From a virus: a stretch of DNA of 64,000 nucleotides. Within the stretch, counting starts at the first letter, position 1. The number at the start of each line of letters is the position of its first letter. The notes beneath the pieces are model-generated. The model was given only the letters and a program-made list of their open reading frames with translations, was not told where the DNA came from and did not search any database. The translations under genes and the position numbers were made by a program. Location: IMG/VR virus record IMGVR_UViG_3300045995_000345, positions 1-64,000 of that record. One strand, given 5' to 3'. Shown here piece by piece: positions 7,614 to 58,149 of this stretch.

Positions 7614-7779
7614 TCCCACCGTCAGGGCTGCGAACTTCTACTTCAAGGCGACACTAGTTGGGTTGGTGATAGGCTGCTTGATCGACATTGCTATGCACAC
7701 GGACGGACCGGAGTTCCCGTTGGCAGTGTTAGTCTTGTGCCTATTCGCCTACCACCACATCGAGGTTTACAAACCATGA
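7606..7779 (+). CDS. small membrane protein
   Basis: 57 residues starting MNDPTVRAANFYF. Two hydrophobic stretches (around 15-30 and 37-48) suggest two membrane helices. It overlaps the previous stop by a few bases and is coupled to the integrase by ATGA. Confidence 0.5.
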   Translation: MNDPTVRAANFYFKATLVGLVIGCLIDIAMHTDGPEFPLAVLVLCLFAYHHIEVYKP

Positions 7780-8858
7780 AGCTACTCAGAACAGGCAGCT
7801 CTGACTTCTGGCAGGCAGAGGTTATGACTGAGGACGGCAGCAAGAAGCTGCTCAACACGTTCTGCTCCACCAAGACGGAAGCTCTGGCTGTCGTTGAACG
7901 CTCCAAGCTGGTCGAGCTTGAGACTGCATCCAAGGCGCACCGGCTCACCGCTGAGGTTGTCACCCTGATCACCGCGAACCGCACTGTCACGGTGGAGCAG
8001 GCCATGGAGGAATGGGATGCCTGGATGGTTACCTCCTGCCGGTCGGATAGAACCAGAGTCAACAACCAGACAGACATCCGGCGCTGGATCCAAGACATGA
8101 AGCTGGCCGGCAAGACGATTGGAAGCATCACCACCGATGACATCCGGCTCTGGATCAACAGCGTGGACTCGAAGAACAAGCTGGGCACCCGGAAGCAGAA
8201 GCTCGCCAGTGTTCGGAACTTCATGACGTTCTGCAACATCAAGCGGTACATCCTGAGCGACCCGTCGCAACTGGTGCGGATCGATTACAAGCTGCTGCCG
8301 TTCATCCAGAAGGAGACGAAGCACAAGAAGGTGTTCGCGGATGACGAGATCGAGTTCCTCTTGGGCGTGTGCGCCAATCAGGATCCGCCTTCCGTGAGTC
8401 GTGGATTCCTGCGGGCAGCAATCATCCTGGGCAGAGACTTGGCCTTGCGCCTGGGCGACATCTGCAATCTGGAATGGCCGTGCTTCCAAGGTGACACACT
8501 CGCCATCTGGCAGGGCAAGACTAACACGCGCTTAGAAATTCCAGTTTCTAAGAGGGTCAAGGATCTGGTGGAGTCCTTACCCAGAGAGGACGTCCGGTTC
8601 CTGTTCCCAAAGGAGCGGGCCATAATCAACGACACGAAGCGTCGGGCGAACCTGTCCGTCGCGTTCAAGGTGTTCCTGGATCGGTTCGGATTCAACGGCT
8701 ACAGCTTCCATTGTCTGAGAGCCACACTGGCTACGACGATGGCGAACAATGGCGCCACGCTGACAGACATTGCCGAGAGGCTGGGCCACCACAAGGGCAG
8801 CGAAGCAACCAAGGCTTACGTCCGAAAGGATGGGGCATCGATGGTCAACCAAAGGTAA
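7776..8858 (+). CDS. int: tyrosine recombinase (phage integrase)
   Basis: 360 residues from the ATG at 7776, which overlaps the upstream stop. The catalytic set is visible: Arg225 (LALRLGD), Lys248 (QGKTN), His312 and Arg315 (HCLRAT), His338/339 (LGHHKG) and Tyr348 (AYVR). An N-terminal arm-type and core-binding region precedes them. It indicates the ability to integrate, so the element is probably temperate. No attP core is recognisable nearby. It reads through palindrome site 5 as LEIPVSK. Confidence 0.9.
   Translation: MKLLRTGSSDFWQAEVMTEDGSKKLLNTFCSTKTEALAVVERSKLVELETASKAHRLTAEVVTLITANRTVTVEQAMEEWDAWMVTSCRSDRTRVNNQTDIRRWIQDMKLAGKTIGSITTDDIRLWINSVDSKNKLGTRKQKLASVRNFMTFCNIKRYILSDPSQLVRIDYKLLPFIQKETKHKKVFADDEIEFLLGVCANQDPPSVSRGFLRAAIILGRDLALRLGDICNLEWPCFQGDTLAIWQGKTNTRLEIPVSKRVKDLVESLPREDVRFLFPKERAIINDTKRRANLSVAFKVFLDRFGFNGYSFHCLRATLATTMANNGATLTDIAERLGHHKGSEATKAYVRKDGASMVNQR
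8532..8551. repeat. dispersed palindrome, site 5 (20 bp)
   Basis: TTAGAAATTCCAGTTTCTAA lies inside the integrase gene. The spacer between GAAA and TTTC is six bases rather than five. Confidence 0.8.
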
Positions 8859-9949: not shown

Positions 9950-10107
9950 TTCTTTCTCAGCCAGCGGACGCGGCCGGGATGTTCTGGTAGTGCATCCATC
10001 GGTCTGGAACTCTGCGAAGGCTCCGGGATCCGCTCCTTTCATACGGACACCAGGAGCCGGCTGAACTTTTCGGTTGACAGAATTTAGATGCGTGTTTCAT
10101 TGGAGAC
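9950..10107 (+). other. non-coding stretch with promoter-like box
   Basis: No gene is seen. A TTGACA at 10074-10079 is a good -35 match, with TCATTG 17 bases downstream as a poor -10. The same TTGAC box lies at nearly the same distance upstream of the second structured RNA copy. A weak GGCTCC/GGAGCC inverted repeat with a long loop lies within 10018-10062. Confidence 0.4.
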
Positions 10108-10240
10108 GTCCCGCAAATCAGGACACATCGACTAGACCCGATGAAACACACAACGACAGTTCCGAAATGCCAGCCAGCCGGGAGCAGCACGTCCTCGCTG
10201 TTCCGGTCTAGCGGTTGGCTGGCATTTCAGAGTGGTCACC
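10108..10240 (+). ncRNA. structured RNA leader, copy A (pseudoknot)
   Basis: Visible elements: hairpin P0 (GTCC 10108-10111 with GGAC 10121-10124); P1 5' strand CTAGACC 10132-10138; P2 5' strand AAATGCCAGCC 10165-10175; hairpin P3 (GAGCAGC 10182-10188 with GCTGTTC 10197-10203); P1 3' strand GGTCTAG 10205-10211; P2 3' strand GGCTGGCATTT 10217-10227. P1 and P2 interleave, giving a pseudoknot. The ATG of the HNH gene follows at 10241. The copy at 55510-55641 keeps the core sequences ACATCGACT and TTCCGA and the order of helices while the paired bases differ. Confidence 0.75.
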
Positions 10241-10921
10241 ATGAGTTCGAGATACGAGAAGAACTGCCCCATCTGCGGCAAGATCTTCGTAGTCGCACAA
10301 AATCTCTGCGCCTGTTCGCGTGATTGCCGAAGACAGATGAACCAACGGTGGGCGAAGGCCAAGCTAGAGAAGCGACGACTCGCCACTCAGTCTCGGCAAT
10401 CGGGCAGCCCATCAATCCAGACTTCCAGACCGTGCAAGAACTGCGGCCGCGACCGCAGGAAGAACAAGATCTTCTGCTGCGTATCCTGCTATGAATCGTT
10501 CCAGAAGAGGCCAAAGACTACGCAGGAACTGGCGGAGATAAAGCTCGCGAAGTCGGAGAAGTTCAGGCGCAAGCGGCAGGCCCGTGGTCAACGCGAGTTT
10601 GAGCTGAACCCCACCCGGTTCACCTACTACCACCACGTCTATCTAAACTCCGATCGGTGGGGGGAACTTCGGAAGCTCAAACTCCAAGAGCGCGATTGCT
10701 GCGCCAATTGCAGCAGCCGGACGAAGTTGCACGTCCATCACTGGGATTACCACAACCTGACCGATGTCCTCCTGATTGATCTGGAAGTCGTTTGCGAGCT
10801 GTGCCACAACGAGATTCACCGCCGGATCGACCGCTTTCCCAAGTCGGAGTGGACCAGATTGAGAGACCTGTTCAGGGAACTCGGAATGGACGGGCTTCCC
10901 ATCAATCCGAAGCACCATTAG
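10241..10921 (+). CDS. HNH endonuclease with N-terminal zinc fingers
   Basis: 226 residues. CPIC and CSRDC (9-29) and CKNC with CVSC (65-83) are two cysteine zinc fingers. The C-terminal HNH core has CANC (154-157), HHWDY (166-170) and CELCH (185-189). Candidate roles are a homing nuclease or a packaging/replication nuclease. The start is directly downstream of the structured RNA; a GTG at 10232 is the alternative. The stop codon lies within palindrome site 6, at the junction with the convergent late operon. Confidence 0.8.
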   Translation: MSSRYEKNCPICGKIFVVAQNLCACSRDCRRQMNQRWAKAKLEKRRLATQSRQSGSPSIQTSRPCKNCGRDRRKNKIFCCVSCYESFQKRPKTTQELAEIKLAKSEKFRRKRQARGQREFELNPTRFTYYHHVYLNSDRWGELRKLKLQERDCCANCSSRTKLHVHHWDYHNLTDVLLIDLEVVCELCHNEIHRRIDRFPKSEWTRLRDLFRELGMDGLPINPKHH

Positions 10922-10936
10922 AAACTCAGTTTCCAT
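10918..10936. repeat. dispersed 19-bp palindrome, site 6
   Basis: TTAGAAACTCAGTTTCCAT lies at the convergent junction. It supplies both the TAG stop of the plus-strand HNH gene and the TGA stop of the minus-strand gene. Confidence 0.9.
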
Positions 10937-11714
10937 CCTTGGGCAAATCAATTACAGCCGGCGCCGGCAGGTGACTCCTTCCATTTCCATTCGCCACCGT
11001 CACATTTCCGTCAACACGCATGTTGACCATTGGCGACAGCGGCGAGAACTTCGGGCTCCGTTTATTCTGGATCGCTTCCTTCTGCTCCGCGCGCCGCAAC
11101 TCAATCATGGCTGCCGCGATTCCAGCCTGCCGGATCTTGTCGTAGGTATCGAGCATGAGGCCGTAGAGCGTGGCCCTGTCCTGCCTGAGCATCCTCAGCC
11201 TGACCAGCCTTTGGTCAAGGTTCTCTCCGGTCAGTGGATCCAAGGGTGCGGTATCGAGCAAGGCGATCCTCTCCGTTGTTGCCTTGGCTTCAGTCTGGAA
11301 ACTCAGGTAGAGGGACAGGAGGCCACCGCCAGTCATGGCGCCGATCTGCTTGAAGTGTTTGGCGAACAGGTCGGCTTGATTGATGGCGGTCTTGGCTACG
11401 TCTTCGGGAATTCCGATGGAGGTAAGAGCTTCTGCCGTCATGCAGACATTCTCCAAACGCTTCATTGAGGATTCAACGTCGCGAGCTAATGACGCTCCCG
11501 GATCTCTCGCATCCACCGCCGATGCTTTCTCAGCTCTGAGTTGATCGAAGACGGCCTTTAGCTTTGCGTTGTCCATGATCCGCAAGCGTAGCTTCTCCGG
11601 ATTCCTTCCGAGCAATCTAGCCGCCCCCGCTATGGATCCAGACTGAAGCAAAGCCTCCCTTATCTGTAATTGCGTGGTTACTCTAGGAGCTTGCTCTGGT
11701 GTGGCGGTGTTCAT
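10926..11714 (-). CDS. hypothetical late protein, possible HTH
   Basis: 262 residues. Residues about 16-45 (QIREALLQSGSIAGAARLLG) resemble a Fis-type or terminase-small-subunit helix-turn-helix; the rest is helical. It is the last late gene, coupled by ATGA overlap to the giant gene. A small-terminase role is possible but unproven, since TerL lies far away on the other strand. Confidence 0.55.
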   Translation of the reverse strand: MNTATPEQAPRVTTQLQIREALLQSGSIAGAARLLGRNPEKLRLRIMDNAKLKAVFDQLRAEKASAVDARDPGASLARDVESSMKRLENVCMTAEALTSIGIPEDVAKTAINQADLFAKHFKQIGAMTGGGLLSLYLSFQTEAKATTERIALLDTAPLDPLTGENLDQRLVRLRMLRQDRATLYGLMLDTYDKIRQAGIAAAMIELRRAEQKEAIQNKRSPKFSPLSPMVNMRVDGNVTVANGNGRSHLPAPAVIDLPKDGN

Positions 11715-14700
11715 CTCCCAAACCCCGCAGCGATTGAACGGTAATCCCTTGCCCCACCACCGCCACCGGACATGGAGCTGGATCCGTAGATGTTCACGGC
11801 CCTGCGTTCTGTGCCGAAGAACGGGGTGAGCCCTCCCGTGTTGGCTCGGCTCTTTCGCACCTGCGCTCCGTAGGCGTTGAAGTTGCGGATGGCTGCCGAC
11901 ACTTCGGTTGCGCTGTCACCCAGAGAAGCCAGCATCTTCTGGTACTCGCCAGCGCTGGGGGACTTGTTGAACGTGGAGCGGAGAGGATTCATGCGCTCGT
12001 AAGCTTCAGCCACGTCTGCGTAGGGATCAACCTCCGGGTCAGTTACAGCCTTCAGGCTGGCGACTTCAAGGGCCTTGGAGTACGCCTCGCGGAATGCGGC
12101 CGGGTCGTTGACGTAGGCAGCCAGGACCATGTTTCCCACCCAAGGTTTCACCGGGTTGGGTATGGCGTTGATCATGCCGGCGGCTGAACCCCGGAAGATT
12201 CTCAGGTCAAGTCCCTGTTCCCTGCCGGCCACACGGATCAGGTTGCCCACGTTGATGCGTTCAACAATGCGGCGCTCGGTGTTGTCGAGGTCCAGCATGT
12301 TGTTGATCGCATCAAAGTTCTGGAGGTAACCAGTTCCACCAGCAGCCTGAATGAACTGGCGCCAGGTTGAAGCGTAGGTGGAATTCGACGGGCCTTGACG
12401 CGCCAGCTTGGTGAGCACAGCGCCAAGGTTCATGATGGTGGAGGCGACGAACACCCGGCTGTCCACGCTGAACTCTCGGGCAGTGGACACGTTGAAGATG
12501 GAGTTGACGGGTTCGCTGATGATTCCGAACGTGCCAAGGCGGGAGAACGAATCAAGCAGGGCGAGGGGCAGGTTCTCATCCAGCTTGAACGGAAGCTGGT
12601 TGGGCGCCTTGCCAACGATGTCCTTCTCGTACTCCTTGCGCATCACGGCGTAGGCGATGGTCACTGGAACGATGGCCAGGGTGAATGCTGTGGCGGCGGA
12701 AGCGGCTGCCCTCAAGGATGCTCTACCCTCCGGCTCTCGCGAACTCTTCACCACGTCGGCGGTCTTGATCAGAGCCCAGCCAGTCAGGGGTGAGACAATG
12801 CGGCCGAAGGTATTGTTGAGCGTCCAAGGCGCACGCGTGGTGATGCCCGTGTTGAGCAGCACCTCGGTGTTCGCCAGCGCAATGACGGATCGAATCTGAT
12901 CGAAGGTCAAAGGCTCCGCTCCAGAAAGTCGCTTTCTAGCAGCGTCCTCCAGTTGGATTCCGTTCTTCTCCAGCGTGGTGTAGAAGTACTTGAACGCCCG
13001 ATCGTCCAGCATCAGCCCGCTCAGGTTCTTGCGCGAGAAGTTCGCCGTCTTGGCGCTGAACTTGAAGTTGGGATCCGCTGCATCTGCCGGGTGGTATTGG
13101 AAATAAAGGGCTGCCTTGTTGATCCCGTCGTTCGTGAACTCAAGCCACGTCCGAGCTGCGGCGCGCTGCATGATGATGTTGTTCATGGAGAACGGTGCCC
13201 ACCACTTGAGGGTAGCGGCTGCCGTCTCAACGTTCTTCGGCTTGCCAACCCCAGTGCTCAGGAACACACGCGCTGCCGCGTTGACCCGCTTCGTTACGGC
13301 GCGCACCACTTCACCGGGCACCCTCAGCGGGGATGCCGTGCTTCTCCACGCCACAGCCCAGAGGGACGCCTCCGCTCCAAGCTGCTGCCGATAGCGGTCC
13401 AGCATACTTCTCCACCCACGGCGTTCGGTGAGCGAGTCAAGGTCCGCCGCCCCACCGCTGTTCAATAGGCGAGTGTTCTTGGCGTTCTCCGCGTTCATCC
13501 GCATCTCCCAGCTCATCGCCTGCCACATGCTGTGCATCAACTCGAATGCGTAGTTCTTGTAGTACCCACCGAACAGGACGGACACCGCTTCCTTGCTGAA
13601 CCCGAACTTCCGGAACGCATGGTCAGGCAGTGAGATGTGATCGGACACGGCGGAGGTGACGCCCTGCAGTACGAACCCGCTCATAACGCCAACCATGTCC
13701 ATCAACGTCTGGTAACTCTGACCTCCGCCGCTGTGGGTGCGAATGAGTGAGAAGAGAACGTCCTCGTTCTTTTGGGCGTACTCGAGATTGTAAACGGCAT
13801 TCTCGCGCATCTTCCTCAGTCCAGGCCGATCTCCATTCAGCCCGTTCTCCATGTAATCTTTCGACAGCGCTGGGTTGCTGGTCTTGATCGCCTCTGCCGC
13901 CTTGAAGTCATCCGCCAGCAGCGTCAGTTCAGTCTGGAGTTTCGCCAGGTTGGCCTTCAGGTCTGTGGCTCCAGCTCCGTAGGCATCCTGCTCTGCCAGG
14001 ACGCGGATGTAGTTCGCGTAATCCTTGTGTCCGTAGGTTCGGAAGTTCAACCATCCAGGAGGGAAGTCCTCTCCCTTGCGCGCATCCAGGAAGGCGCGCC
14101 CAATCGTTCTCAAGTCGTTGCCCTGATCTCCTTCGTCCACCTTGGCGACCTTGTAGAGTTCGTCCATGTAATGTTGGAACGTGGCCATGGTCTGGCCTAC
14201 GAAATCCGAGAGTGTATCGGGACTTCCACCAAGGTCAGCGTGCAGCGTCTCGGCAAACTTCAGGGCATCGAAGGTGCCATCGGCGCGACCAGCCGTGGCT
14301 GCTTGGTAGGCTCCCCTCAACTGCGCGTGCGGGGCCATGTCCACAACTCCGCCAACCTCCGGGCCTTTGAAGTTCGTTTGACCGGGCTTGGAAATCAGTT
14401 CGGCAACGAACGTCGTGTTGACTGGAGCGGTGAACCTCGCGTCCAGCACGGCCTGCAACGCTGCCCGATCCTTGGAGTGCAGCAATGCGACGGCGCTCTT
14501 GGTGAGGCCGACGTGTTCGACGGGGGTGGGATTGCCAGCATCGTCTGTCTCGGCTCCCATCCATGGAGTATTCCAGAACAGCTTCTCACTTCCCTTCATC
14601 CGCATCGCGAGAGCCACGGCTGGCCCTGCGGTGTAACGGCTCATGGTGCTCATCACGCCACCGATGACATCGCGGAAGATGACGCGCCCTCCAACCATGA

Positions 14701-17700
14701 CATCGCGGATCTTGAGCTTTATCCCGCGTCGGACGTTCTGAAGATCCATCGCCGCCGCGAAGTTGGCACGGATGTACTTGTCCACCGCTTCCCATGCGCC
14801 CTTTCGCTCCATGCCTGGGAGCGCCTGCACGAACCTCTTTCCGGTCGCCATGAACTGGTCGAGCTGCTGCTCCGGAGTCAGCCTTGGATCGTAGAGGTGC
14901 TGCTCGGATTGGAACAGGCCGAGGATGTTGTGGTAGAAGTTGGCGTGAAACTCAACAGGGTTGTCGATGCCGGTGGCGATCATTGCGGCACGGGCAAGTT
15001 CGTCCACCTTGTAGTAGAGCCGCTCGTTGATCGAGTTGCGAAGCGACTGCTCCCGGTTGTTGTGCGTCACGATCTGCTGCTCGATGGCGCGCGCTGTCTG
15101 CGTTCCGTGTTGCCGGAACCGCGTCCCGATGTCGCCCATGGAACGGAGGATCCAGCCGCCCAAGCCACGCTGAATATTCTCATTCGCGCTGTTCGCTTGA
15201 CGCCCGGCAGCCTCTCTCACCACACGTTCCAGAAAAGCGAATCTCCCTGATCCTTGAGATCCCGGGTGCTCCGCCATCCAGCTCACAATCTTCGTGAGAT
15301 TCTGCTGAATATTCGCGTCGCTGTAGTTGTCGCCATGCTGAACCGTCTGGCGAAACTCAGGCTTCGTGAAAAGATCATCCTCAGTTGTCAGGTTGCTCTC
15401 GGGAACCAAGTAAACCGCGTTGTTCACCCACTTGAACTGCCGGCTTTGTTCTCCGAAGGTGCCTTCCTCCAGGTCGCGCATTCGTTCCAGCTTGCGAATC
15501 TCCTCAGCCTGAATCTTGGAAATGATGTGCCACTCCACATCCCACTGCGAGAGTTGTGCCGCCTGCTTGAGCAGCTTCTCGTTCTCCGCCTTGATTGTGT
15601 CGAGGCGCTTTAGGATTCGGTCGGCGTGAACGAACAGGGTGCCCACGCGGGAGAGCTGGCCCACTGCAAGCGCCCGGGCATCCGGCTTGTTGCTGACCGC
15701 CAGTTTGATCATCTGGTTGATGGCGGTCTTCTGGACACCCTTGTCATCGTAGGCTGTCCGCACCGCCAGGAGATCCATCGCGATCGGCCGGCGTCGTGCG
15801 AACTGGAGAGCCAGGGCAAGGCGAGCTGGGTCGGCTGCGATGTTCCGAGCGTTCGGGTTGGCGCTGGCTGCCGCCGCTGCCTGCACGTCGCCTGGGGTCA
15901 GGGACACCTTGCCAGCGGATGTCAGTGAGACATTTCCCACGGTGGAGTAGTCGATGCCTAGCTCTGCTAGGGCTTGAAGCTGGTCGCCAAAGGCAATCTT
16001 GTTTCCCTCAATCGCTCCAGCCGCGATCCTCAGCGCTTCCTTGAAGCCAGTCTTAATGCCCAAGGCTTCAAGGATGGATTGCGCCCCGGTGCCAGTGGCC
16101 TCGCGCAAGGCGTCCTTCATGGACTTCAGGAACTGGCCGGTCACCACGTCGAGGTTCTGGTAGTTCTGGGTCAGCTCGTAAAGCTCCAGGTTCGATTCGC
16201 TGATGCGCTCGGTGAGCTTGCCTTCGCCGAACTCATGATCGGAGAGTGCCTTGCGCGCCTGCCACCGGGTCCGGTCCTTGTAGTGAATCTCCAGGGCTGC
16301 CATCTGCGCCTTGGGCGCTTCGTTGGTCTGCTCCAGGTCTGCGAACGTGAGGCTGGTAGAAACTGGCTTTCCAGTGGTGCCGTCTTTGGTGAGCGCGCTG
16401 TTGATTGCGGCCTTGATGTCCTCGGCTGGATCTTCCCCGCCTTGAATAAGTGAGGCGAACGAGTTCTGAATCCACTCGGCCTCCGTGGCAACCGGCTTCC
16501 CTGTGGTGGTGACGTTGTTCCCGCTCTTAACGAGGGCGTCGAAGTACTTGGAACGTGCGGCGGCAACCTCATTCGTGACCGCCATCATTCGCTTGGCCTC
16601 GTTCTCGTACTCTCGCGTTGGGCTGATCTCTGTGCGTTCCCCGGCGAGGCCCTTGATCTGGCGGTAGCGCATCTCATCCGCATTCATCGGCCCCGTGTTG
16701 GGTCGCAAGACGCGCCACGCCTTGTCCCTCGCCGCCGCCGCTTCGTCGTAGTTCTGGAGCAACGTGGTGACCAGCTTGTAGGCTTCGTCCGCAACGTTCT
16801 TGTCGCTGGTCAGGCCAACTGCCTTGAGCAGGTTCGCCACCAGGCGCTTGAACGCATCCCACAAGGACAACGATGTCGGGTCACCGAAGTTCGGAGGCAG
16901 CGCAATCTTGGTGAGCTTGTCTCGAAACTCCGGGTCTGACAGCACGGCAACGGCGAACTCATCCGATCCAACCAGACCTTCCGCTGACTGCTGCCACGTC
17001 AGGCCCGCTGCCTTTGCGGCTTCAACCAGTGTGTGCAATTTTTGCACGAACTCCTGTTCGCCAACTGTCAGCGATGCCGGGTTGTTCCTCGCACGCAAGA
17101 GCAGTCGCGAGATGAAAGGATGCAGCGCCTCGTGAACAACTGAGACATGGAAGTCCTCCACGTTCCGAGCGTTGGCTGGGAACACGGTGGCTTCATTGTT
17201 GGCCACGCTGTAAGATCCACCAAGCGGAGTCCCGACTTGAGTCTCTGGAGAGATTGTCAGCTTTGCCTCAGTGACATCCGCTCTTCCGGCAAGGAACTTG
17301 GCTAAGGCAGCCAGTTCCCCACCCGCCTCCGCCACCTTCTCCAAGGCAGCCGCCAGCGTCGGGTAATCCTTCTTCAACGCGGCGATGTTCATCTCGCTCA
17401 GCAACCCGTGCTGAGTGGCTGGCAGCTTGCTCTTGGCCAGTCGTTTGAGATTGAAGATGACGTTCTCCACGGAGTCGGGAAGAAGCTCCGGCGCCGTGAT
17501 CGTCTGCGCATCCAGGTCAACGGCGTCCATCGCGTCTGGATCCAACTGGCGTTCGCGGGATGGCGTGACGGCTTCTTGAGCCACGTCCAGGGCGGTCTCG
17601 ATTCCGTGCGGAGTCCTCGCCTTCGTGATCATGTCGAGGATCTGATCCCTCTGACCATCACTCAACCCGCCGTCTTCGTGCAGACTCAAGATGACGCCAA

Positions 17701-20700
17701 CCGCCTCCGCCTTCAGCGGCACAAGGGCGCGCATCTTCTCCGACATCGCGTCTAGAGTTGCTACGGAGGTGGGGCTTGGTTCAAGTCTTGCACTTGTTCC
17801 GGTCTCACTTGGGGCTTGCGCGGGTTGCGCTGCTGCCGGCGGCGTGCCTTGGCCAACGCCTGCGACAATCCCACCATCAGCAGCATTATCCCGTTGCGAA
17901 TTTCCGGTCGCGCCTTCTGCAATGGCGGAGGAACTTCCAGCATTTGTGTTCTCATTGGAAAGAGCCTTTCTAACTCCATTCCAGTTCGTGATGATGGTTG
18001 GCAGTGTTTCATCCAACATTCGCTGGATCATTGCCCGGTCTTCGATGGAGTCGTAGGAGGCCGCAACGCTTGCCTGAAGTTCTTTCGCGAACTGCTGAAT
18101 CAACTCGGGCGACGTAACGACGTGGTCCTTTTGAAACGCCACGATCTGCGCCACCATCGGCATGTTGTTCTTCACCCAATCAGCAAACCTGAGTTGCTCC
18201 TTCCGGTTCAACGCCTGCTCTGGTGTGAAGTTCCTCGCGTTGACGATGTCTCCGGACGCCGTCCTCACGTTGTCGGTTGAGTATCCGTAGGCGTCATCCC
18301 TTGCCTGCTTCAGTCCACCGAACTCGCCCTCGTAATCAGCCACGCTGCGGATGGCTCGCGCAAGCTGGTTGCGTGGCGACCGCAAGAGCATGGACGAATA
18401 CGGCACGAACCCAGCCTCCAGCAAATCAATCACCCCAACTGTGTCCTTGGCCCCATCACCAATGGCGAATCGGAATTGCAGGTTGGCAATGACTTTGTTC
18501 GCGCGGAGCTTCTTGCTCACCGCGTTCACGTCGCCCTTGGTCTTCTTCAGCGCCTTTCCGAGTTCCGTCAGCGTGACTGTCTTGGGTGAAGACTTCAACG
18601 CCTTGGCCGCTTCCTTTTTCGTAATACCGAAACCCGCCGCCGCCTCTTCCAGCGTGTAGGTGATCGCCCTGTTGCGGTTGTAGGCCAGCGAAAGAATGAC
18701 GCGGCCGGCCGGGGTGATCCAACCAGCAACCCGTCGGCTCAACGAAGAGGACTGCTTGCCCACCGCAACCTGCTTGCCCTTCTCACTTCTCTTGGCTGTG
18801 CCCACCTGGGACTGGGCAGTGAGCAACGTGCCGATCAGCTTCGCGGCGTATTCCTTCTCGCCCTGAGTCTTGGCTTCGTTGTAGAGCTTGTGAGCTTCAG
18901 ACAGATCGTGACCGCCACCAGTGTCGTCCTTCGTGTCGTAGTAACCCGGGAGCTTGGCGATCTTGCGAGCGGCCTCTTCGCTGTCCAAAGTAGCCTGCGC
19001 ATCAGAGGATTCGTCAGGCGTCATTCCTGGCTCGTCACCAGACGTCGGATCTTCCACGCGGCCGAATGCGTTTTCGACTGCGGTGGATCCAGAATCATCA
19101 ACGAGCGAATCACCATGCCCGCGTTGAGACGGATCTTCCGAAGGCTTGGCTGCATCCAGAGAACCATACTCGAACTCCACCGCTGCCGGCCCGATGGCTT
19201 GAACGATGGATTGCTCCTCCGCTTTGAAGTTGGCAATGGCACGCTCCAGCTTTGAGATGCTCAGGATCAGATCAGCGTGTCGGTCAACGAGCGCCTCGGC
19301 GTCCTTGTCAGCCTTCTTCAGCTCGGCAATGAGCGATTCGACCTGCTTGAGTTCAGCCTGCTGGGCAGCCAAGTCGGTCTTGAGATACTCCAGGTTCTTC
19401 TTGCCATCGTAGTTCTCTCCGAGCGCATCGACCTTGGCAACGACGTTGGCGGCGAAACCGAGAGCTTCAGGCTTCAGTGCTTCTTCGACTTTGCGTACTT
19501 CTTTGCCCACGACGGGAGCTTGTCCTTTGACTTCACCTTGGACGGGAGCTTGCTGAACGACGGTGTTTCCTTGGCCCACCGCTTGGCCCACGGTTGGTGC
19601 GTTGAGAATGCGAACTTCTGTTGCGAGGTGCTGAGGAATGGGGGCATTGGATTCCTTGGTTGGTGCTGACTGGCTGCGCGCTTGGATCTTGGCAGCCATC
19701 TCGGCGGGCCTGGGTTGGCGAGACTGACTGAGCCGCTGAATGCGTGCGGCCATATCCGCTGGGCGCGGAGCCTGCGTCTTGAAGTACGTCTTGAGCGCGG
19801 CAACTGCGGCCTTGGGAGTTTCGGGAGGAGAAGCCTGTTGAGCCTCCGATGGAGGCGGTGCTTCCTTGGTAGCGAGCGCTGCGGGTGCAGCCGGCACAAC
19901 AGGTGAAGGCGATTGGGCAACCTCAGCGTTGCGCGTCACGGTCGGGTCACGCATGGCTTCAGCGTAAACCATCAGGTGCGCTTCAACGGGCGTGCCAGCC
20001 GGGATCATCTGCGTGTCCACGGGAACGAACGTAGCGCCAGCCTTGACGAACAGTTCGAGCTTGTTGCCCCCGTCCTTCTGCGGCGTCACCACGGAACGGA
20101 ACAGCACCTTGCCCGTGTCATCCTTGGCTTCGAGGATGCGTGGTGTCAGCGGAACTCCCAGCTTGCGCGATTCGGCCCACGTCAACTGTTGGTTCACGTT
20201 GCGCTGCTTCACCACATCAGGAATCGAGGCTTCTGTCTTGGGATCATATCGAAGCCCCAGCTTGGCAGCCATCTGTTGCAGGTCGGCGCGCGTGAGCGTG
20301 TCCTTATTTAGCAGTTCGGCTACATCGCGAACCTCCGGGCTTCTCTGGTCTTCGGGAACGGACTGAACCAGATCCTTCGCGAACTGGTAGAGCGGCACCT
20401 TGGAGACGGCGGGGCGTTCAGCTTCAGCCGTAGCCGAAACCCCACCCGCACCAGTTTCGCTGGGAACGCTGGCTGGTGCGGGCGTTGATGTCTCGGTAAC
20501 CGGAGGTGCTACTTGCAACTCTTGGGTCCCTTGACCTTGGGCATTTGCTTCTTCGCCATTGGGAGTCTCACCGCCTTTCTCGTTGGAAAGTGACTTTCCA
20601 AGTTCGTCGCTTCTGGCTTGAAGGATCCTGGTCCACTCCTGATTGAAGATTGCTTTCGAGTCTGAGTTGAGTTTCAGGATCTCAAGCTCGACGGCGGGGT

Positions 20701-22111
20701 CGCCGGCAGCCTTGCGCTGCACCAGTAATGCGATGCCGGCCCTGTCAACATCGTAGATGTCCTTGGCTACGTCGCTCCCAATCGTCCCGGTCTTCAGCGC
20801 GTCCGGCGGCGGAGGCGGTTCGTTCGTCGCCTCCTTCTTGGGCGGGGGCTGCTGCTCTCCACGCTTCTTGCCTGTGAACAGTTCGGTAACGGCGGACGTG
20901 GCGCCACCGCCCATGGTCCCGGCGATACCAGAGTTGATGATGTCATCCTTCTCCGCCTGATTCAGTGGAGCCCAAAGCTTGCCCTCGTCATGGTCATGCA
21001 GGAAAGCTCCGTAACGCTGGCCGGCAACGTCAACAAGCGATTGGAACGCCTCAGTGCTCCCTTCCCATGGCACCGTCTTGGCGACCTCTGGGGCGAGGCG
21101 TGTGACGTAGGCGTAAAACGGCTTCTTCAGAGGTTCAACCGCCGCGTCTGTCAGCTCGCGGCCGGCCCTGCCCATTGCCTTGCCCAACCGTCCGACGATG
21201 TAGGTGGGCAGGACTGTATCGGGGACCGCCTTTATGCCACCACCCACCAAGGCGATGTTGGCCGCGTCATCCTGGCTGAGTTCGCCCTTGTTCACCTGAT
21301 CCTGCAACTCCATGAACAACTCGCCGGAGTTCTGCTGCATGGACGCAGCGGCACCACCCGTGAGGTTGCCGATCATCTGGCCGACCGTTGCCGCCTGGCG
21401 AACCGTTGCTGCCCGCAGGAGTTCCTTGGCCGGAGCGCTGAGTGCGTCCTTCAGGATCGTGCCAGCTGCGTACTTCTCGATCTCACCCTTCAGTTCAGCC
21501 GACACCTTCGCCTTCACCAGCGCCTTGAGGGCTCCACGTTCAAACAACCCAGCCGCCGCGCCCGGAATCCCGCCCACGCCAGCACCAGTCGCCGCACCAA
21601 TGGCGGCGCCCGCACCCGCCGCAACCACGGACTCACCAATCGACGGCACCAAGTTGCCAAACTGGTTGGCCGCATAGAGCATCGCCGTGCGCGGCCCGCT
21701 CACGTCACGCCAGTTGGCCACTGCCGGCTGGTAGTAATCCGCCGCCTCTTGCTGTTGCTCCGCTGCCTTGCCGATCAGGGTCTTGGCGATGTTAGTCGCG
21801 CCTAACTTCTGCGCCACCATGCCGCCTGCCCCGTAGGCAAGCGCCTGAGTCTGGTCAATGCCCGCACCCAGAGAACCCTTGAACTCCTGCCACGTTGACG
21901 TGTTGGCAATGCGGTCCTCCTTCTGGATTCGGTCCCAGTCAGCGGCGAAGTCCGGGTACTCCTTGAACACGTCCCTGCCTTGGGCGGAATACTCGGGGGC
22001 CTGAGCGGCGTAGAGCCGTGTGATGTCGTCATCCTTGAGGGCCGACATGTCCTCCGGATTCCAACCCAAAGGGTTGTTCTTCCGAACGAAGTCAACGAGT
22101 TGGTTGGGCAT
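11711..22111 (-). CDS. giant virion-associated polyvalent protein
   Basis: 3466 residues. An Ala/Gly-rich hydrophobic segment near 165-195 could insert in membrane. Long low-complexity and coiled-coil regions fill residues about 500-1100. HEALH at 1660-1664 is a HExxH zinc-metalloprotease motif. A late hydrophobic region lies near residues 3100-3200, and the tail is Gly/Ser-rich. Its place after two internal-virion-like genes suggests an ejected internal protein. Length is near that of N4 virion RNA polymerase, but no polymerase motifs were found. Palindrome sites 7-10 lie inside it. Confidence 0.7.
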   Translation of the reverse strand: MPNQLVDFVRKNNPLGWNPEDMSALKDDDITRLYAAQAPEYSAQGRDVFKEYPDFAADWDRIQKEDRIANTSTWQEFKGSLGAGIDQTQALAYGAGGMVAQKLGATNIAKTLIGKAAEQQQEAADYYQPAVANWRDVSGPRTAMLYAANQFGNLVPSIGESVVAAGAGAAIGAATGAGVGGIPGAAAGLFERGALKALVKAKVSAELKGEIEKYAAGTILKDALSAPAKELLRAATVRQAATVGQMIGNLTGGAAASMQQNSGELFMELQDQVNKGELSQDDAANIALVGGGIKAVPDTVLPTYIVGRLGKAMGRAGRELTDAAVEPLKKPFYAYVTRLAPEVAKTVPWEGSTEAFQSLVDVAGQRYGAFLHDHDEGKLWAPLNQAEKDDIINSGIAGTMGGGATSAVTELFTGKKRGEQQPPPKKEATNEPPPPPDALKTGTIGSDVAKDIYDVDRAGIALLVQRKAAGDPAVELEILKLNSDSKAIFNQEWTRILQARSDELGKSLSNEKGGETPNGEEANAQGQGTQELQVAPPVTETSTPAPASVPSETGAGGVSATAEAERPAVSKVPLYQFAKDLVQSVPEDQRSPEVRDVAELLNKDTLTRADLQQMAAKLGLRYDPKTEASIPDVVKQRNVNQQLTWAESRKLGVPLTPRILEAKDDTGKVLFRSVVTPQKDGGNKLELFVKAGATFVPVDTQMIPAGTPVEAHLMVYAEAMRDPTVTRNAEVAQSPSPVVPAAPAALATKEAPPPSEAQQASPPETPKAAVAALKTYFKTQAPRPADMAARIQRLSQSRQPRPAEMAAKIQARSQSAPTKESNAPIPQHLATEVRILNAPTVGQAVGQGNTVVQQAPVQGEVKGQAPVVGKEVRKVEEALKPEALGFAANVVAKVDALGENYDGKKNLEYLKTDLAAQQAELKQVESLIAELKKADKDAEALVDRHADLILSISKLERAIANFKAEEQSIVQAIGPAAVEFEYGSLDAAKPSEDPSQRGHGDSLVDDSGSTAVENAFGRVEDPTSGDEPGMTPDESSDAQATLDSEEAARKIAKLPGYYDTKDDTGGGHDLSEAHKLYNEAKTQGEKEYAAKLIGTLLTAQSQVGTAKRSEKGKQVAVGKQSSSLSRRVAGWITPAGRVILSLAYNRNRAITYTLEEAAAGFGITKKEAAKALKSSPKTVTLTELGKALKKTKGDVNAVSKKLRANKVIANLQFRFAIGDGAKDTVGVIDLLEAGFVPYSSMLLRSPRNQLARAIRSVADYEGEFGGLKQARDDAYGYSTDNVRTASGDIVNARNFTPEQALNRKEQLRFADWVKNNMPMVAQIVAFQKDHVVTSPELIQQFAKELQASVAASYDSIEDRAMIQRMLDETLPTIITNWNGVRKALSNENTNAGSSSAIAEGATGNSQRDNAADGGIVAGVGQGTPPAAAQPAQAPSETGTSARLEPSPTSVATLDAMSEKMRALVPLKAEAVGVILSLHEDGGLSDGQRDQILDMITKARTPHGIETALDVAQEAVTPSRERQLDPDAMDAVDLDAQTITAPELLPDSVENVIFNLKRLAKSKLPATQHGLLSEMNIAALKKDYPTLAAALEKVAEAGGELAALAKFLAGRADVTEAKLTISPETQVGTPLGGSYSVANNEATVFPANARNVEDFHVSVVHEALHPFISRLLLRARNNPASLTVGEQEFVQKLHTLVEAAKAAGLTWQQSAEGLVGSDEFAVAVLSDPEFRDKLTKIALPPNFGDPTSLSLWDAFKRLVANLLKAVGLTSDKNVADEAYKLVTTLLQNYDEAAAARDKAWRVLRPNTGPMNADEMRYRQIKGLAGERTEISPTREYENEAKRMMAVTNEVAAARSKYFDALVKSGNNVTTTGKPVATEAEWIQNSFASLIQGGEDPAEDIKAAINSALTKDGTTGKPVSTSLTFADLEQTNEAPKAQMAALEIHYKDRTRWQARKALSDHEFGEGKLTERISESNLELYELTQNYQNLDVVTGQFLKSMKDALREATGTGAQSILEALGIKTGFKEALRIAAGAIEGNKIAFGDQLQALAELGIDYSTVGNVSLTSAGKVSLTPGDVQAAAAASANPNARNIAADPARLALALQFARRRPIAMDLLAVRTAYDDKGVQKTAINQMIKLAVSNKPDARALAVGQLSRVGTLFVHADRILKRLDTIKAENEKLLKQAAQLSQWDVEWHIISKIQAEEIRKLERMRDLEEGTFGEQSRQFKWVNNAVYLVPESNLTTEDDLFTKPEFRQTVQHGDNYSDANIQQNLTKIVSWMAEHPGSQGSGRFAFLERVVREAAGRQANSANENIQRGLGGWILRSMGDIGTRFRQHGTQTARAIEQQIVTHNNREQSLRNSINERLYYKVDELARAAMIATGIDNPVEFHANFYHNILGLFQSEQHLYDPRLTPEQQLDQFMATGKRFVQALPGMERKGAWEAVDKYIRANFAAAMDLQNVRRGIKLKIRDVMVGGRVIFRDVIGGVMSTMSRYTAGPAVALAMRMKGSEKLFWNTPWMGAETDDAGNPTPVEHVGLTKSAVALLHSKDRAALQAVLDARFTAPVNTTFVAELISKPGQTNFKGPEVGGVVDMAPHAQLRGAYQAATAGRADGTFDALKFAETLHADLGGSPDTLSDFVGQTMATFQHYMDELYKVAKVDEGDQGNDLRTIGRAFLDARKGEDFPPGWLNFRTYGHKDYANYIRVLAEQDAYGAGATDLKANLAKLQTELTLLADDFKAAEAIKTSNPALSKDYMENGLNGDRPGLRKMRENAVYNLEYAQKNEDVLFSLIRTHSGGGQSYQTLMDMVGVMSGFVLQGVTSAVSDHISLPDHAFRKFGFSKEAVSVLFGGYYKNYAFELMHSMWQAMSWEMRMNAENAKNTRLLNSGGAADLDSLTERRGWRSMLDRYRQQLGAEASLWAVAWRSTASPLRVPGEVVRAVTKRVNAAARVFLSTGVGKPKNVETAAATLKWWAPFSMNNIIMQRAAARTWLEFTNDGINKAALYFQYHPADAADPNFKFSAKTANFSRKNLSGLMLDDRAFKYFYTTLEKNGIQLEDAARKRLSGAEPLTFDQIRSVIALANTEVLLNTGITTRAPWTLNNTFGRIVSPLTGWALIKTADVVKSSREPEGRASLRAAASAATAFTLAIVPVTIAYAVMRKEYEKDIVGKAPNQLPFKLDENLPLALLDSFSRLGTFGIISEPVNSIFNVSTAREFSVDSRVFVASTIMNLGAVLTKLARQGPSNSTYASTWRQFIQAAGGTGYLQNFDAINNMLDLDNTERRIVERINVGNLIRVAGREQGLDLRIFRGSAAGMINAIPNPVKPWVGNMVLAAYVNDPAAFREAYSKALEVASLKAVTDPEVDPYADVAEAYERMNPLRSTFNKSPSAGEYQKMLASLGDSATEVSAAIRNFNAYGAQVRKSRANTGGLTPFFGTERRAVNIYGSSSMSGGGGGARDYRSIAAGFGR
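12921..12939. repeat. dispersed 19-bp palindrome, site 7
   Basis: CCAGAAAGTCGCTTTCTAG lies within the giant gene and is read on the minus strand as RKRLSG. Confidence 0.82.
16356..16374. repeat. dispersed 19-bp palindrome, site 8
   Basis: GTAGAAACTGGCTTTCCAG lies within the giant gene and is read on the minus strand as GKPVST. Confidence 0.82.
17955..17973. repeat. dispersed 19-bp palindrome, site 9
   Basis: TTGGAAAGAGCCTTTCTAA lies within the giant gene and is read on the minus strand as RKALSN. Confidence 0.85.
20583..20601. repeat. dispersed 19-bp palindrome, site 10
   Basis: TTGGAAAGTGACTTTCCAA is a perfect palindrome inside the giant gene, read on the minus strand as GKSLSN in a linker-like region. 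Confidence 0.9.
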
Positions 22112-33716: not shown

Positions 33717-33735
33717 TTAGAAACTGGGTTTCTAT
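33717..33735. repeat. dispersed 19-bp palindrome, site 16
   Basis: TTAGAAACTGGGTTTCTAT supplies the stop of the adaptor-phosphatase gene and touches the AAGGAG ribosome binding site of the GT9-like gene (minus strand). Confidence 0.88.
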
Positions 33736-35375
33736 GTCTTCTTCATGGTGACTCGGTCGATGACTTCGTTGTCCACGGTCCGCATTTCCCACTGAAGCTC
33801 CGTGGCCGTAGCCGTGAAGCGCAGGAAACCGTGCTTGGAATTGTAGAAGAACTGGCTGCCGGGCAGGCTGACCGTAGCCGCAGCGCCCCGCAACGTGGAT
33901 CCACCCGTGCCGCAAATGACGTGCGTCAACCCGGTGGCGTCTCTCAGGCGCTCGTAATTGTGCGCGTGGCCGGACACTACAAGATCAACCCCGAGATGGA
34001 GCAGTTCGTCCGTGAACTGCTTCACCACGGCTGATCCCGGATAATGGTTCACGTCTGAACACGCAGCCGGCCGGTGAACACAGACAATCACCCAAGGCTC
34101 AGAGGCAGCGTTGATGGTTGACTCCACCCACGTCAACTCCGTGTCCAGCGTGACCAGCGGGTCTGAATCATCCAGGCCGGAGTTCACCACGATGAACCGC
34201 ACGTTCCCCCTGGCGAACGTGTAATGTAGGAGGTGGGCGACCAGGTTGTCGTGACCAATCAACCCGCTGGTGGTGGTGAGCACGTTCAGGAATGGCTGTC
34301 CGTAGCCAGTCTCCAGATCGTGGTTTCCCATCGTCAGGTAGAACTTGTCCGGCAGGAAGTTCCAGTAGTGCTTCAGGAGTAGATCGTAAATCAGGTAGTC
34401 GGCCCCTCCGGTCTGGGTGCCCACAGCCTGGGATGGCGTCTCTTCGCTTCCTGCCCGGCGGTTCTCAGCGTAGGCCGCGTCGCCAAGGTGAACGATGAAC
34501 TGGGGATCCACCGCCTTGACGGCCGTAGCCACGGCGATCGTGTCTGCGATCGTGGTCTGCTGGCCGCTGTCACCGAACATCACCCACTCGTCTTGAGGAA
34601 TCACAATCTCTGGGCAGTAACCGGAAGCGTAACTGACGGAGGTGTCGCCACAGGCGCAAAGGCCGTTGTCGAACATACCCTCCGCGCAAGGTTGGGGAAC
34701 GCAGCCGGCCTGGGACTCGGCGACCTTGAGGCGTTGACGTTCCTCCGCTTCAGCGAAGAGCTTCGCGCGCGCCAACCTGTAACCGTCCCGGTATTCCCGA
34801 GAGAGGGAGACATTCCGGTCAACCTCACGCGTGAGCTTCCACTTCACGAACTCGTGAACTGCATCGGCGAAAGGCTCATCGAACGGGACTTCATCCGCGT
34901 CGAGGTAATCGGCGTTTGTCCGCCCGATGATGGCATCCCAGACGATTTGAACCGCGTAACCCTCCGTCACCCTGGGGTAAACCCAGAACGTCTTCCCGCC
35001 GTCGCGCTTGTCCAACACGAATCGGAACTGGGAACGCTCCGTGCCGATGCTGAGAACGCCAGCCCGCAAATCATTCCGCAGGGAAAACTCGTAGGGCACC
35101 ATCGGACGCCGCACCCACATCGAACCGGTCTTGACGTGGTAAAGCTCACGCAGAGCCGCCCCTCTTGGAATGGATCCCTTGGACGCGAACCCGTCCGAAC
35201 TCAGATCATCTTCCTCCAGCGTGGTGGTGATGCCCTTGCGGTAGTAGGGGATGAAGGATTGAAGATCACCAACGGCAATGCGGACCTGGGCGTCAATGAA
35301 TGTCTGGGCGCCAAGGCGCTTCCGTTCAACTGCGAGGGATCCGTCAACCAGCGTCTTGAACGCGCTCCAGATCAT
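33732..35375 (-). CDS. head-tail adaptor fused to purple acid phosphatase-like domain
   Basis: 547 residues. Residues 1-215 resemble phage head-tail adaptors or tail tubular protein A (MIWSAFKTLVDGSLAVERK, then LSREYRDGYRLARAKLF). Residues ~255-547 are a metallophosphoesterase with the full purple acid phosphatase set: GDSG (Asp269), GDAAY (Asp299), GNHD (350-353), a VHRP segment and GHAHNYER (469-476). All metal ligands appear present. A phosphatase displayed on the virion neck would be unusual. A Cys-rich linker (CVPQPCAEGMFDNGLCAC) joins the parts. Confidence 0.8.
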   Translation of the reverse strand: MIWSAFKTLVDGSLAVERKRLGAQTFIDAQVRIAVGDLQSFIPYYRKGITTTLEEDDLSSDGFASKGSIPRGAALRELYHVKTGSMWVRRPMVPYEFSLRNDLRAGVLSIGTERSQFRFVLDKRDGGKTFWVYPRVTEGYAVQIVWDAIIGRTNADYLDADEVPFDEPFADAVHEFVKWKLTREVDRNVSLSREYRDGYRLARAKLFAEAEERQRLKVAESQAGCVPQPCAEGMFDNGLCACGDTSVSYASGYCPEIVIPQDEWVMFGDSGQQTTIADTIAVATAVKAVDPQFIVHLGDAAYAENRRAGSEETPSQAVGTQTGGADYLIYDLLLKHYWNFLPDKFYLTMGNHDLETGYGQPFLNVLTTTSGLIGHDNLVAHLLHYTFARGNVRFIVVNSGLDDSDPLVTLDTELTWVESTINAASEPWVIVCVHRPAACSDVNHYPGSAVVKQFTDELLHLGVDLVVSGHAHNYERLRDATGLTHVICGTGGSTLRGAAATVSLPGSQFFYNSKHGFLRFTATATELQWEMRTVDNEVIDRVTMKKT

Positions 35376-55467: not shown

Positions 55468-55509
55468 CGCGGGATGCTTGACTTCCTGAAATACTCAGTT
55501 ACTCCTTGA
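55468..55509 (+). promoter_or_regulatory. promoter-like box before RNA copy B
   Basis: TTGACT at 55478-55483 lies 50 bases before the ACATCGACT core, nearly the same distance (51) as the TTGACA before copy A. The -10 element is weak (TACTCC). Confidence 0.4.
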
Positions 55510-55641
55510 GTGAGTCCGAAAGGATTCACATCGACTCAACCCGGTGAAGACAGACACGACAATTCCGAACCTCCCACACGTTGGGGCAAGACGCCAGTCC
55601 TGCCCGGTTGAGCAGCGCGTGGGAGGTTCTGAGGTGTCACG
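55510..55641 (+). ncRNA. structured RNA leader, copy B (pseudoknot)
   Basis: Elements: P0 GTGAGTCC-GAAA-GGATTCAC (55510-55529); P1 5' strand CTCAACC 55535-55541; P2 5' strand AACCTCCCAC 55568-55577; P3 GGGCA 55584-55588 with TGCCC 55601-55605; P1 3' strand GGTTGAG 55606-55612; P2 3' strand GTGGGAGGTT 55619-55628. A GAGGTG ribosome binding site and the ATG at 55642 follow. Compared with copy A every helix has changed sequence but kept pairing, while ACATCGACT and TTCCGA stayed. Confidence 0.75.
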
Positions 55642-55830
55642 ATGAAGTTGATATTCAGCAAGCAGGAGATCGCGCAGGCGGTCGAAGTTTACTGGGGCGG
55701 CGAATTACTCAACGCGGCAGAGAATTACACGGAGGGTGAGTGTGGTGTTTTTTACGACATGGAAACCGGGGAAATAACCGCTGAGATTGAGATCACCCAA
55801 AAGTCGTTGAGTGAAAGGAAGGCCGAATGA
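55642..55830 (+). CDS. small protein controlled by the structured RNA
   Basis: 62 residues, acidic and helical (SKQEIAQAVEVYWGGELLNA). It opens the DUF1376-helicase-SSB operon, starting just after RNA copy B and ending in an ATGA overlap. It could itself be a replication accessory protein, or a leader coupling the RNA to downstream genes. Confidence 0.6.
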   Translation: MKLIFSKQEIAQAVEVYWGGELLNAAENYTEGECGVFYDMETGEITAEIEITQKSLSERKAE

Positions 55831-56729
55831 GCGCCCCCGCTTCCTTCCCGTTCTACCCCGACGACTTCCTGGCCGGAACCATGGAGATGTCCACTGATGA
55901 GGTTGGAGCCTACATCCGGCTCCTCTCTCACCAATGGAACCGCGGTTCAATTCCGGTTCAAACCGAAAAGCAACAACGGTTGGCTGGGGGCTCAGTCTCG
56001 GCCGACGTAATTTCCAAGTTTGAGGTGTGTGAAGACGGCCTTCTCCGGAACGCGAGGATGGAGTTTGAGCGAGAGAAGCAATGTAAGTATCGTGATGCTC
56101 AAGCACTTAAGGGTCGCCTTAGTGGCCAGGCAAGGCGAACCCCGGTTGAACCCCGGTTGAACCCCGGTTCAGTTTTGGTTGGAACCCAATCGAACCCCCC
56201 CGTCCCCGTCCCCGTCCCCGTCCCAATTGTACAAATACCCAGCAAGCCGGGCGGTGGAGTTTCGGAATTACCGAAAGACGCAGAAGACATCGAGGCTCAG
56301 ATCGACCAGCTCTACTCCGCCTACCCGAAGCACGTCGGCGTAGCGAATGCGAAGAGGGCGATTCGGAAGGCATTGAAAAAGGCGACGTTTGAAGTCCTCT
56401 TCGAAGCCGTCACTGCCTTTGCAGTTTCCCAGGCCAGTAGGTCGGCGGAGACGAAGAAGTTCATTCCCGACCCGGCGACGTGGTTCAACGCGGAACGTTG
56501 GACAGACGACCGCACCACATGGACGGTTGGGCAGAACGGCTCCACGGTCCCGCCCCACAAGCAGCTTGACGCGGTCAAGCTCTCGATCGAGACGCACCCC
56601 GCGAACCGGGAGTATGTCGGCTACGACGAACGGAAGGTCACGCCAGAGTTGAAGACCCAGCTCTCCGACCTTCGGAAGGCGGCAGAGCAGTTGACGCTTC
56701 GGATCGCGAAAGGATCCATCCATGGGTAA
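55827..56729 (+). CDS. DUF1376-like replication-associated protein
   Basis: 300 residues. The N-terminal 90 residues (FPFYPDDFLAGTMEMSTDEV, then GAYIRLLSHQW) are DUF1376-like. The C-terminal half resembles phage helicase-loader or origin-binding tails. A middle linker is built from short tandem repeats: three copies of a GAACCCCGGTT unit and a repeated GTCCCC (VPVPVPVP). Acts before DnaB in the operon. Confidence 0.75.
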   Translation: MSAPASFPFYPDDFLAGTMEMSTDEVGAYIRLLSHQWNRGSIPVQTEKQQRLAGGSVSADVISKFEVCEDGLLRNARMEFEREKQCKYRDAQALKGRLSGQARRTPVEPRLNPGSVLVGTQSNPPVPVPVPVPIVQIPSKPGGGVSELPKDAEDIEAQIDQLYSAYPKHVGVANAKRAIRKALKKATFEVLFEAVTAFAVSQASRSAETKKFIPDPATWFNAERWTDDRTTWTVGQNGSTVPPHKQLDAVKLSIETHPANREYVGYDERKVTPELKTQLSDLRKAAEQLTLRIAKGSIHG

Positions 56730-58149
56730 GCAGTTCCTCAGTGATATGCCCATCGACAGGCTCCCGCCGCACGCACCAGAGGCGGAGCAAGCCGTGATCG
56801 GATGCTGCCTACTCACAAACGACGCCATAGATGAAGTCTTGGAAACTGGACTTTCCAGTGAATGGTTCTATGACCTTCGCTTGCGGGATATGTGGACGGT
56901 GTTGTCTACGATGCGCGCTGCCGGAATTCCCATCGACTTGATTTCGCTTCCGCAGAAGTTGCGCGACGCTGGGAAGCTGGAGGCCGTTGGTGGGATTGCC
57001 TATATCACCGCCCTGATTGACGGAGTTCCGAGCGCAAGCATAGTCGGATACTACGTCGGGATGCTTCGCGATAAGTGGCTTTTGAGGAAGGCTATTGCCG
57101 TCTGCACTGAGCATGTGTCGAAAGCCTACGAGGGTTGCGACGCTGAGGATGTTGTGGCTTCACTTGAACGAGACTCACTCGCCATCCGTGATGACAAGTC
57201 TGACAAGCGCGCCGAGACAATGCAGACCATCGCAAGGCGTGTGGTGGAGAACATCGAGAAACGGATGACTTCCGGTGAGGGAGTTATCAGCACAGGCTTC
57301 ACGGATCTGGACAAGTACACTTCCGGAGGGCTGAAGGATTCCGAGATGTGGATCATGGCGGCGCGCCCGTCACTTGGTAAGACTTCGCTCGCGATGAACA
57401 TCGCCGCTAACGTCGCTGACGCTTTCCGGTCCGAATGGTTATCCTCGCACGCGAAGGAAGAACCCTACGCAGGCCAAAGCGTTCTCGTGTTCAGTTTGGA
57501 GATGACCGCCGAAGCCCTCACTGAGCGCATGGTGTCCAGCTACGCTAGGGTGGGAACCCGAAGGACGGAGGCGTTCAACGAACGGGAAATGGTAAGGCTC
57601 ACCACGGCGGTTGGTGTCGTGTCCAAACTCCCACTCATCATTGAAGATTCTCCAATGACGCTTGGCCGGATTATGGCCAAGGCGCGCCGGCACGTTTCGC
57701 GTGACAACACGAAGGTGATCGTTGTGGATTATCTCCAGTGCATTCTGAGCACCCCCGACGCGCGCTCCCAGGATCGAAGGGTTGAGGTTGACGGGTTCAG
57801 CCGGGGCCTGAAGCAAATGGCGAAAGAGCTGAAGGTCCCCGTGCTGGTTGCCGCCCAGCTCAACCGGGATCTTGAGCGCGAAAAGAACCGACGCCCGCGC
57901 ATGTCTGATTTGCGCGAGGCTGGCGGCATCGAAGCCGACGCGGACTTCATAGGGTTCCTTTACAAGCCGTCATCAAAGGGCGAAGAAGAGGAATCGGATT
58001 CGTGTGCCGTGAACCTGCTCATTGGGAAGCAGCGCAACGGAATGGCCAACGTCGATGTCGCCCTAACCTTCCTCAAACAGTTCACGCGTTTTGAAAGCGC
58101 CGCAAAAGTATGCTCGGAAGACTATCGCCCCACCCACTCGGACCCATGA
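56722..58149 (+). CDS. dnaB: DnaB-type replicative helicase
   Basis: 475 residues. N-terminal DnaB domain (PPHAPEAEQAVIGCCLL), Walker A ARPSLGKT (214-221), Walker B-like VIVVDYLQ, and a late RNGMANV helicase motif are present. It unwinds the replication fork. A PHAPEAE start and DLREAGGIEADAD are typical. Palindrome site 20 is read LETGLSS. Confidence 0.9.
   Translation: MGKQFLSDMPIDRLPPHAPEAEQAVIGCCLLTNDAIDEVLETGLSSEWFYDLRLRDMWTVLSTMRAAGIPIDLISLPQKLRDAGKLEAVGGIAYITALIDGVPSASIVGYYVGMLRDKWLLRKAIAVCTEHVSKAYEGCDAEDVVASLERDSLAIRDDKSDKRAETMQTIARRVVENIEKRMTSGEGVISTGFTDLDKYTSGGLKDSEMWIMAARPSLGKTSLAMNIAANVADAFRSEWLSSHAKEEPYAGQSVLVFSLEMTAEALTERMVSSYARVGTRRTEAFNEREMVRLTTAVGVVSKLPLIIEDSPMTLGRIMAKARRHVSRDNTKVIVVDYLQCILSTPDARSQDRRVEVDGFSRGLKQMAKELKVPVLVAAQLNRDLEREKNRRPRMSDLREAGGIEADADFIGFLYKPSSKGEEEESDSCAVNLLIGKQRNGMANVDVALTFLKQFTRFESAAKVCSEDYRPTHSDP
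56839..56858. repeat. dispersed palindrome, site 20 (20 bp)
   Basis: TTGGAAACTGGACTTTCCAG has a six-base spacer. It lies near the 5' end of the helicase gene. Confidence 0.78.

Follow-up and report, generated by a model that had tools for sequence, protein, structure and literature searches.

What is the structured RNA-like element that stands directly before the start codons of two genes of one phage, and how might it act on them? The window analysed here is a stretch of 64,000 nucleotides (nt), positions 1–64000 of the virus record IMGVR_UViG_3300045995_000345 (73,024 bases in total), and it carries two copies of the element, A (10108–10243) and B (55512–55644). An earlier note had aligned these two stretches from the sequence alone, and the nearly gap-free A/B alignment obtained here bears it out at the positions it gave. 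The element is, with moderate confidence, read as a 5' leader RNA that acts in cis in phage mRNAs and governs how their first gene is translated; probably it represents a new kind of inbuilt brake on the translation of HNH-type endonuclease genes.

The A/B alignment (A2) contains two interleaved helices, P1 (7 bp, columns 9–15 × 82–88) and P2 (16 bp, columns 41–56 × 90–105), with the helix P3 inserted between the 5' arm of P2 (P2a) and the 3' arm of P1 (P1b). Standard pairs make up 96.7% of the 60 cells, and 10 pairs have changed on both sides between A and B (shuffle mean 5.1; 0 of 500 shuffles reached 10). When one arm was moved by 1–3 columns, pairing fell to 30–46%. The claim that all three helices stay paired despite sequence change thus held against both controls. 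Over A, B and a third instance, C, described below, G-U pairs on the sense strand exceed A-C mismatches by 11:1, which points to an RNA of the same sense as the downstream gene as the conserved object. The nested folding z-scores are −6.6 for A and −4.4 for B, and among 86 leaders in the genome A ranks 5th and B 2nd in stability.

The minimum-energy nested folds of A and B share one topology: a small hairpin (P1x, CATCG/CGRTG), whose 8-nt loop contains the 5' arm of P1 (P1a), is joined by an A-rich linker to a long hairpin, P2x-P2-P3, in which P1b forms a 7-nt bulge. With its two arms placed in a loop and in a bulge, P1 is, in these modelled folds, a loop-bulge kissing helix. The H-type pseudoknot with a hairpin insert proposed earlier is correct as to the interleaving of P1 and P2, but not as a plain H-type, since the nested fold together with P1 gives the kissing arrangement. 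If the longer hairpin P0 of B is included, P0 competes against P1x in the predicted fold.

From the foot of P2 to the ATG there are 12, 12 and 13 nt in A, B and C, respectively, in agreement with the earlier description of P2 as ending beside the ribosome site. P2 could be extended by P2x, in which GACANTTC is complementary to GAGNNGTC at the ribosome-binding site (RBS); 7 of the 8 positions pair in A, and likewise in B. This bears on the well-conserved, unpaired core of about 27 bases that had been described. The core is indeed alike in A and B, but part of it need not be unpaired, and the pairing of GACANTTC with the RBS region is a simpler reason for that part of the likeness. The conservation of two copies also fits recent common descent, and it is not significant in C (p 0.2–0.3).

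Since sequence searches had found nothing further, a structural descriptor was written (a hairpin loop containing P1a, a P2 score of at least 8, and P1b directly before P2b, the 3' arm of P2) and was run over 449 kb of DNA from this phage and from relatives identified through conserved virion and terminase genes. The three highest scores were those of A (31.5), B (29) and C (29), and the next best was 24.0. The score of C was matched in 2 of 400 shuffled genomes of its source record, and 313 kb of unrelated real DNA peaked at 26.5. C was picked by structure and not by context; yet the ATG of an open reading frame (ORF) follows 13 nt after its P2. The distance from a TTGAC motif to the first hairpin is also nearly constant (34, 34 and 35 nt in A, B and C). 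We infer that C is homologous to A and B from its architecture, spacing and locus, because the likeness of the linker is not significant. The two-sequence covariance model suggested earlier (R1) recovers just A and B within the record, it has no match in related records, and it gives C just 3.1 bits because C differs in sequence. A segment just before C, GGGGTCCGTGGTGTAATGGTCTGG (L040:3210-3238, minus strand), resembles the 5' end of a tRNA; no tRNA was predicted there.

Searches beyond the three copies were negative. Rfam 15 gave no match at the gathering cut-off in the window or in 64001–73024, and at the A, B and C loci the matches below threshold, with E values up to 5, were chance matches on the opposite strand; the earlier statement that no RNA class fits is in line with this. 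None of 50,697 phages was matched in blastn searches with A, B or C. A pattern scan of IMG/VR with CATCGACT..GACANTTCCGA gave 17 chance-like matches, among which only L002 has a possible P2, with no P1, and the 21 matches in GTDB genomes were all chance. IMG/VR protein searches with the HNH protein of A and the 62-aa ORF of B as queries returned none, and no description of such a leader was found in a limited search of the open-access literature. Two other identities were tried and rejected: a terminator, as no U run follows P2, and an RNA-guided nuclease system (IscB/omega-RNA-like), with no RuvC and no HEARO match.

The genes downstream (Table 1) link the element to HNH-type endonucleases. 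A structured leader stands directly before an endonuclease ORF in both A and C. The ORF after A has no Pfam match above the cut-off; its HNH region is 36% identical over 64 residues to the protein after C. C precedes this 150-aa HNH ORF (phrog_119, E 1e-13), which is followed by a replication initiator and DnaB. At the corresponding locus here, the one where the HNH gene of C sits in G010, B stands 5' of the replication initiator. Among related records, relatives of the HNH protein of C are found just in G000 and G010, the two with the element. The replication region is also present in G004, G005 and G011, with nothing comparable to the element beside it. About 140 bases lie between the integrase gene and the homologue of ORF 10926–11714 in G005; here about 2 kb separates the two genes and holds A with its HNH gene. 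From these comparisons the element is accessory; it seems to accompany inserted HNH-type genes rather than replication genes as such, and B may be a case in which the HNH gene was lost or exchanged.

The mechanism may be pictured as follows. Transcription would probably start at the first hairpin, from a possible promoter suggested by the -35-like element; no consensus -10 was found after TTGAC, and a scan for sigma-70-like promoters found none in the leader regions. The RNA would fold into the small hairpin P1x and the long hairpin P2 capped by P3, and the P1x loop would kiss the bulge just 5' of the 3' arm of P2, locking the long hairpin. The foot of P2, 12–13 nt before the AUG, would then lie at the edge of the 30S landing site, with the weaker extension P2x pairing with the RBS. 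The folded state is proposed to hold translation down because the constant distance from the P2 foot to the AUG sets a stable, locked helix at the ribosome site, with P2x over the RBS. Opening by timing, the ribosome, a protein or cleavage could release translation. The element accompanies HNH (homing-type) endonuclease genes, and at the B/C locus it stands at the head of the replication operon.

Several observations weigh against this proposal. P2x pairs at 7 of 8 positions in A and again in B, without covariation. RBS accessibility is low, not extreme (B 13th and A 23rd lowest of 86; C 33rd of 79). C has no good Shine-Dalgarno sequence, and its linker shows no significant similarity to A or B. 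B precedes a 62-aa ORF and no HNH gene, and no such leader accompanies the HNH relatives in the phages Abp95, Pan5 and Comrade. The known instances are three, all within one IMG/VR family of phages.

Among the alternatives, a ligand- or protein-sensing leader (a riboswitch or autogenous site), with the kissing pseudoknot as sensor and P2/P2x as expression platform, is fairly unlikely. Its topology and the P2 foot at the RBS recall the translational pseudoknot riboswitches, and two copies with different partners retain one form; but no Rfam model matches, the downstream genes (HNH, and the 62-aa ORF with replication genes) have no metabolite in common, and the linker is not significantly conserved in C, whereas in aptamers conservation is usually highest in the core. 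A bolder version is also unlikely: a new class of sensing leader built on the loop-bulge kissing helix, which would time the expression of phage endonuclease and replication operon to a phage or host factor and move between genes as a module.

Control of the replication operon is a still more doubtful explanation. B and C head the initiator-DnaB operon at one locus, and the ORF after B overlaps the initiator start codon; control would be comparable to that by the repZ pseudoknot of IncB/IncI plasmids, and A would have become attached secondarily to an HNH gene. However, the three related replication regions mentioned above do without the element, and A adjoins the integrase region, far from the replication genes. 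An RNA that releases the HNH message by self-cleavage or processing, in the way that lariat-capping or HDV-like ribozymes act in other systems, would suit interleaved helices directly 5' of endonuclease genes, but it is highly improbable given that no ribozyme family (HDV-like, lariat-capping or others) and no group I intron in Rfam matches, and that C shares no invariant core. An inverted repeat acting at the level of DNA, as an origin, protein site or cruciform, can hardly be the answer either: P2 is a long inverted repeat and B is close to replication genes, but the G-U bias lies on one strand, the spacing to the ATG is fixed, and a cruciform would have no use for the interleaved P1.

Table 1. 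Features of the leaders, their genes and the surrounding record (window positions unless stated otherwise).
Feature	Position	Strand	Remark
A, possible -35 element TTGACA	10074..10079	+	34 nt upstream of first hairpin; from sequence
A, hairpin P0 (GTCC/GGAC)	10108..10124	+	
A, hairpin P1x (CATCG/CGATG)	10126..10143	+	loop contains P1a; minimum-energy fold
A, P1a CTAGACC	10132..10138	+	loop side of predicted kissing helix
A, P2x 5' strand GACAGTTC	10155..10162	+	complementary to RBS region
A, P2a	10164..10179	+	16 bp with P2b
A, P3 hairpin	10180..10204	+	
A, P1b GGTCTAG	10205..10211	+	bulge side of predicted kissing helix
A, P2b	10213..10228	+	
A, RBS region GAGTGGTC	10230..10237	+	P2x 3' strand
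HNH endonuclease-like ORF after A, 226 aa	10241..10921	+	phrog_119 E 3.6e-5; HNH-like C-terminal half
B, possible -35 element TTGACT	55478..55483	+	34 nt upstream of first hairpin
B, hairpin P0 (GAGTCC/GGATTC)	55512..55527	+	
B, hairpin P1x (CATCG/CGGTG)	55529..55546	+	P1a inside loop
B, P1a CTCAACC	55535..55541	+	
B, P2x 5' strand GACAATTC	55558..55565	+	
B, P2a	55567..55582	+	
B, P3 hairpin	55583..55605	+	
B, P1b GGTTGAG	55606..55612	+	
B, P2b	55614..55629	+	
B, RBS GAGGTGTC	55631..55638	+	P2x 3' strand
62-aa ORF after B	55642..55830	+	stop overlaps replication initiator start (ATGA)
Replication initiation/primosomal protein	55827..56729	+	phrog_9327 E 4e-24, phrog_270
DnaB helicase	56722..58149	+	same operon as initiator; Pfam PF03796 E 4e-73
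C	G010 (IMGVR_UViG_3300009167_000007), 43210-43058 (L040:3058-3210:-)	minus	descriptor scan
Integrase	7737-8858		
Terminase	44569-46143		
Palindrome TTTGGAAAGTNACTTTCCAAA, in window	466, 3612, 7060, 20585, 25120, 31488, 40609		
Palindrome TTTGGAAAGTNACTTTCCAAA, record positions	65356, 66083, 66891, 67656, 68188, 68726, 69145, 70013, 71667		

The record is probably that of a temperate tailed phage, since it encodes an integrase, a terminase, RecT, an exonuclease, a replication initiator and DnaB. No host emerged when a terminase profile was run on about 1,580 genomes from four groups, or from a collection scan. The 62-aa ORF has no PHROG match. Elsewhere in the window, a 782-aa protein (493–2841) has a weak VWA domain match and is similar to CobT-like phage proteins (phrog_17276, phrog_1576); a 3,466-aa ORF (11711–22111), whose thirds were scanned separately, has no Pfam matches and is about 33% identical in related phages; and the protein encoded at 33732–35375, in the structural gene region, has a calcineurin-like phosphoesterase domain (Metallophos, E 3e-14) and matches the SU10 adaptor weakly. 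The palindrome form TTTGGAAAGTNACTTTCCAAA (GGAAA-N5-TTTCC) occurs exactly 16 times in the record, 9 times within the final 9 kb, and is absent from the 11 related records; when 2 mismatches were allowed, 19 and 24 strand matches were counted against 0.04 and 0.33 expected. Judged from sequence, the set resembles the scattered operator or stoperator sites that serve a phage repressor.

A covarying kissing pseudoknot with a fixed geometry to the likely start site and the AUG, kept in two phages through near-complete sequence divergence, suggests strong selection on shape. Rfam lacks the element, and in the collections searched it is very rare. As a model of how translation of mobile endonucleases or of phage replication genes is controlled, it is compact and open to direct test.

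The translational pseudoknot riboswitches SAM-II and preQ1-II/III likewise have a pseudoknot adjoining the RBS; they differ in that the present element matches no Rfam model, serves no metabolic gene, has a 16-bp P2 and loop-bulge kissing, and has no conserved core across A, B and C. In the repZ leader of IncB/IncI plasmids, long-range loop pairing occurs close to where the replication gene begins, and a small ORF is coupled to that gene; there translation is activated by the pseudoknot, under the control of an antisense RNA. No antisense RNA of this kind was found here, where no search was aimed at one. B resembles it in the loop pairing near a replication gene start and in the small coupled ORF. 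Descriptions of structured leaders of phage endonuclease genes concern chiefly simple hairpins in T4-like phages. In T4 and Aeh1, the translation of homing-endonuclease genes (I-TevI, I-TevII, I-TevIII, segB and mobE) is held down by simple RNA hairpins that sequester the RBS, and a late promoter whose position leaves the hairpin out of late transcripts relieves this (PMC2988022). Like these, the present leader places a stable 5' structure at the RBS of an endonuclease gene in a phage; it is unlike them in its kissing pseudoknot and in the possible promoter upstream of the whole structure. The seg43(25) leader of Aeromonas phage 25, before a segD-like gene, forms a very stable hairpin with its foot immediately upstream of a free RBS (PMC2988022); the hairpin foot next to the RBS of an endonuclease gene is shared, whereas no pseudoknot was described for seg43(25). 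On this comparison the element would act like an endonuclease-gene leader hairpin, from which its pseudoknot and promoter placement set it apart, and would stand outside the known families.
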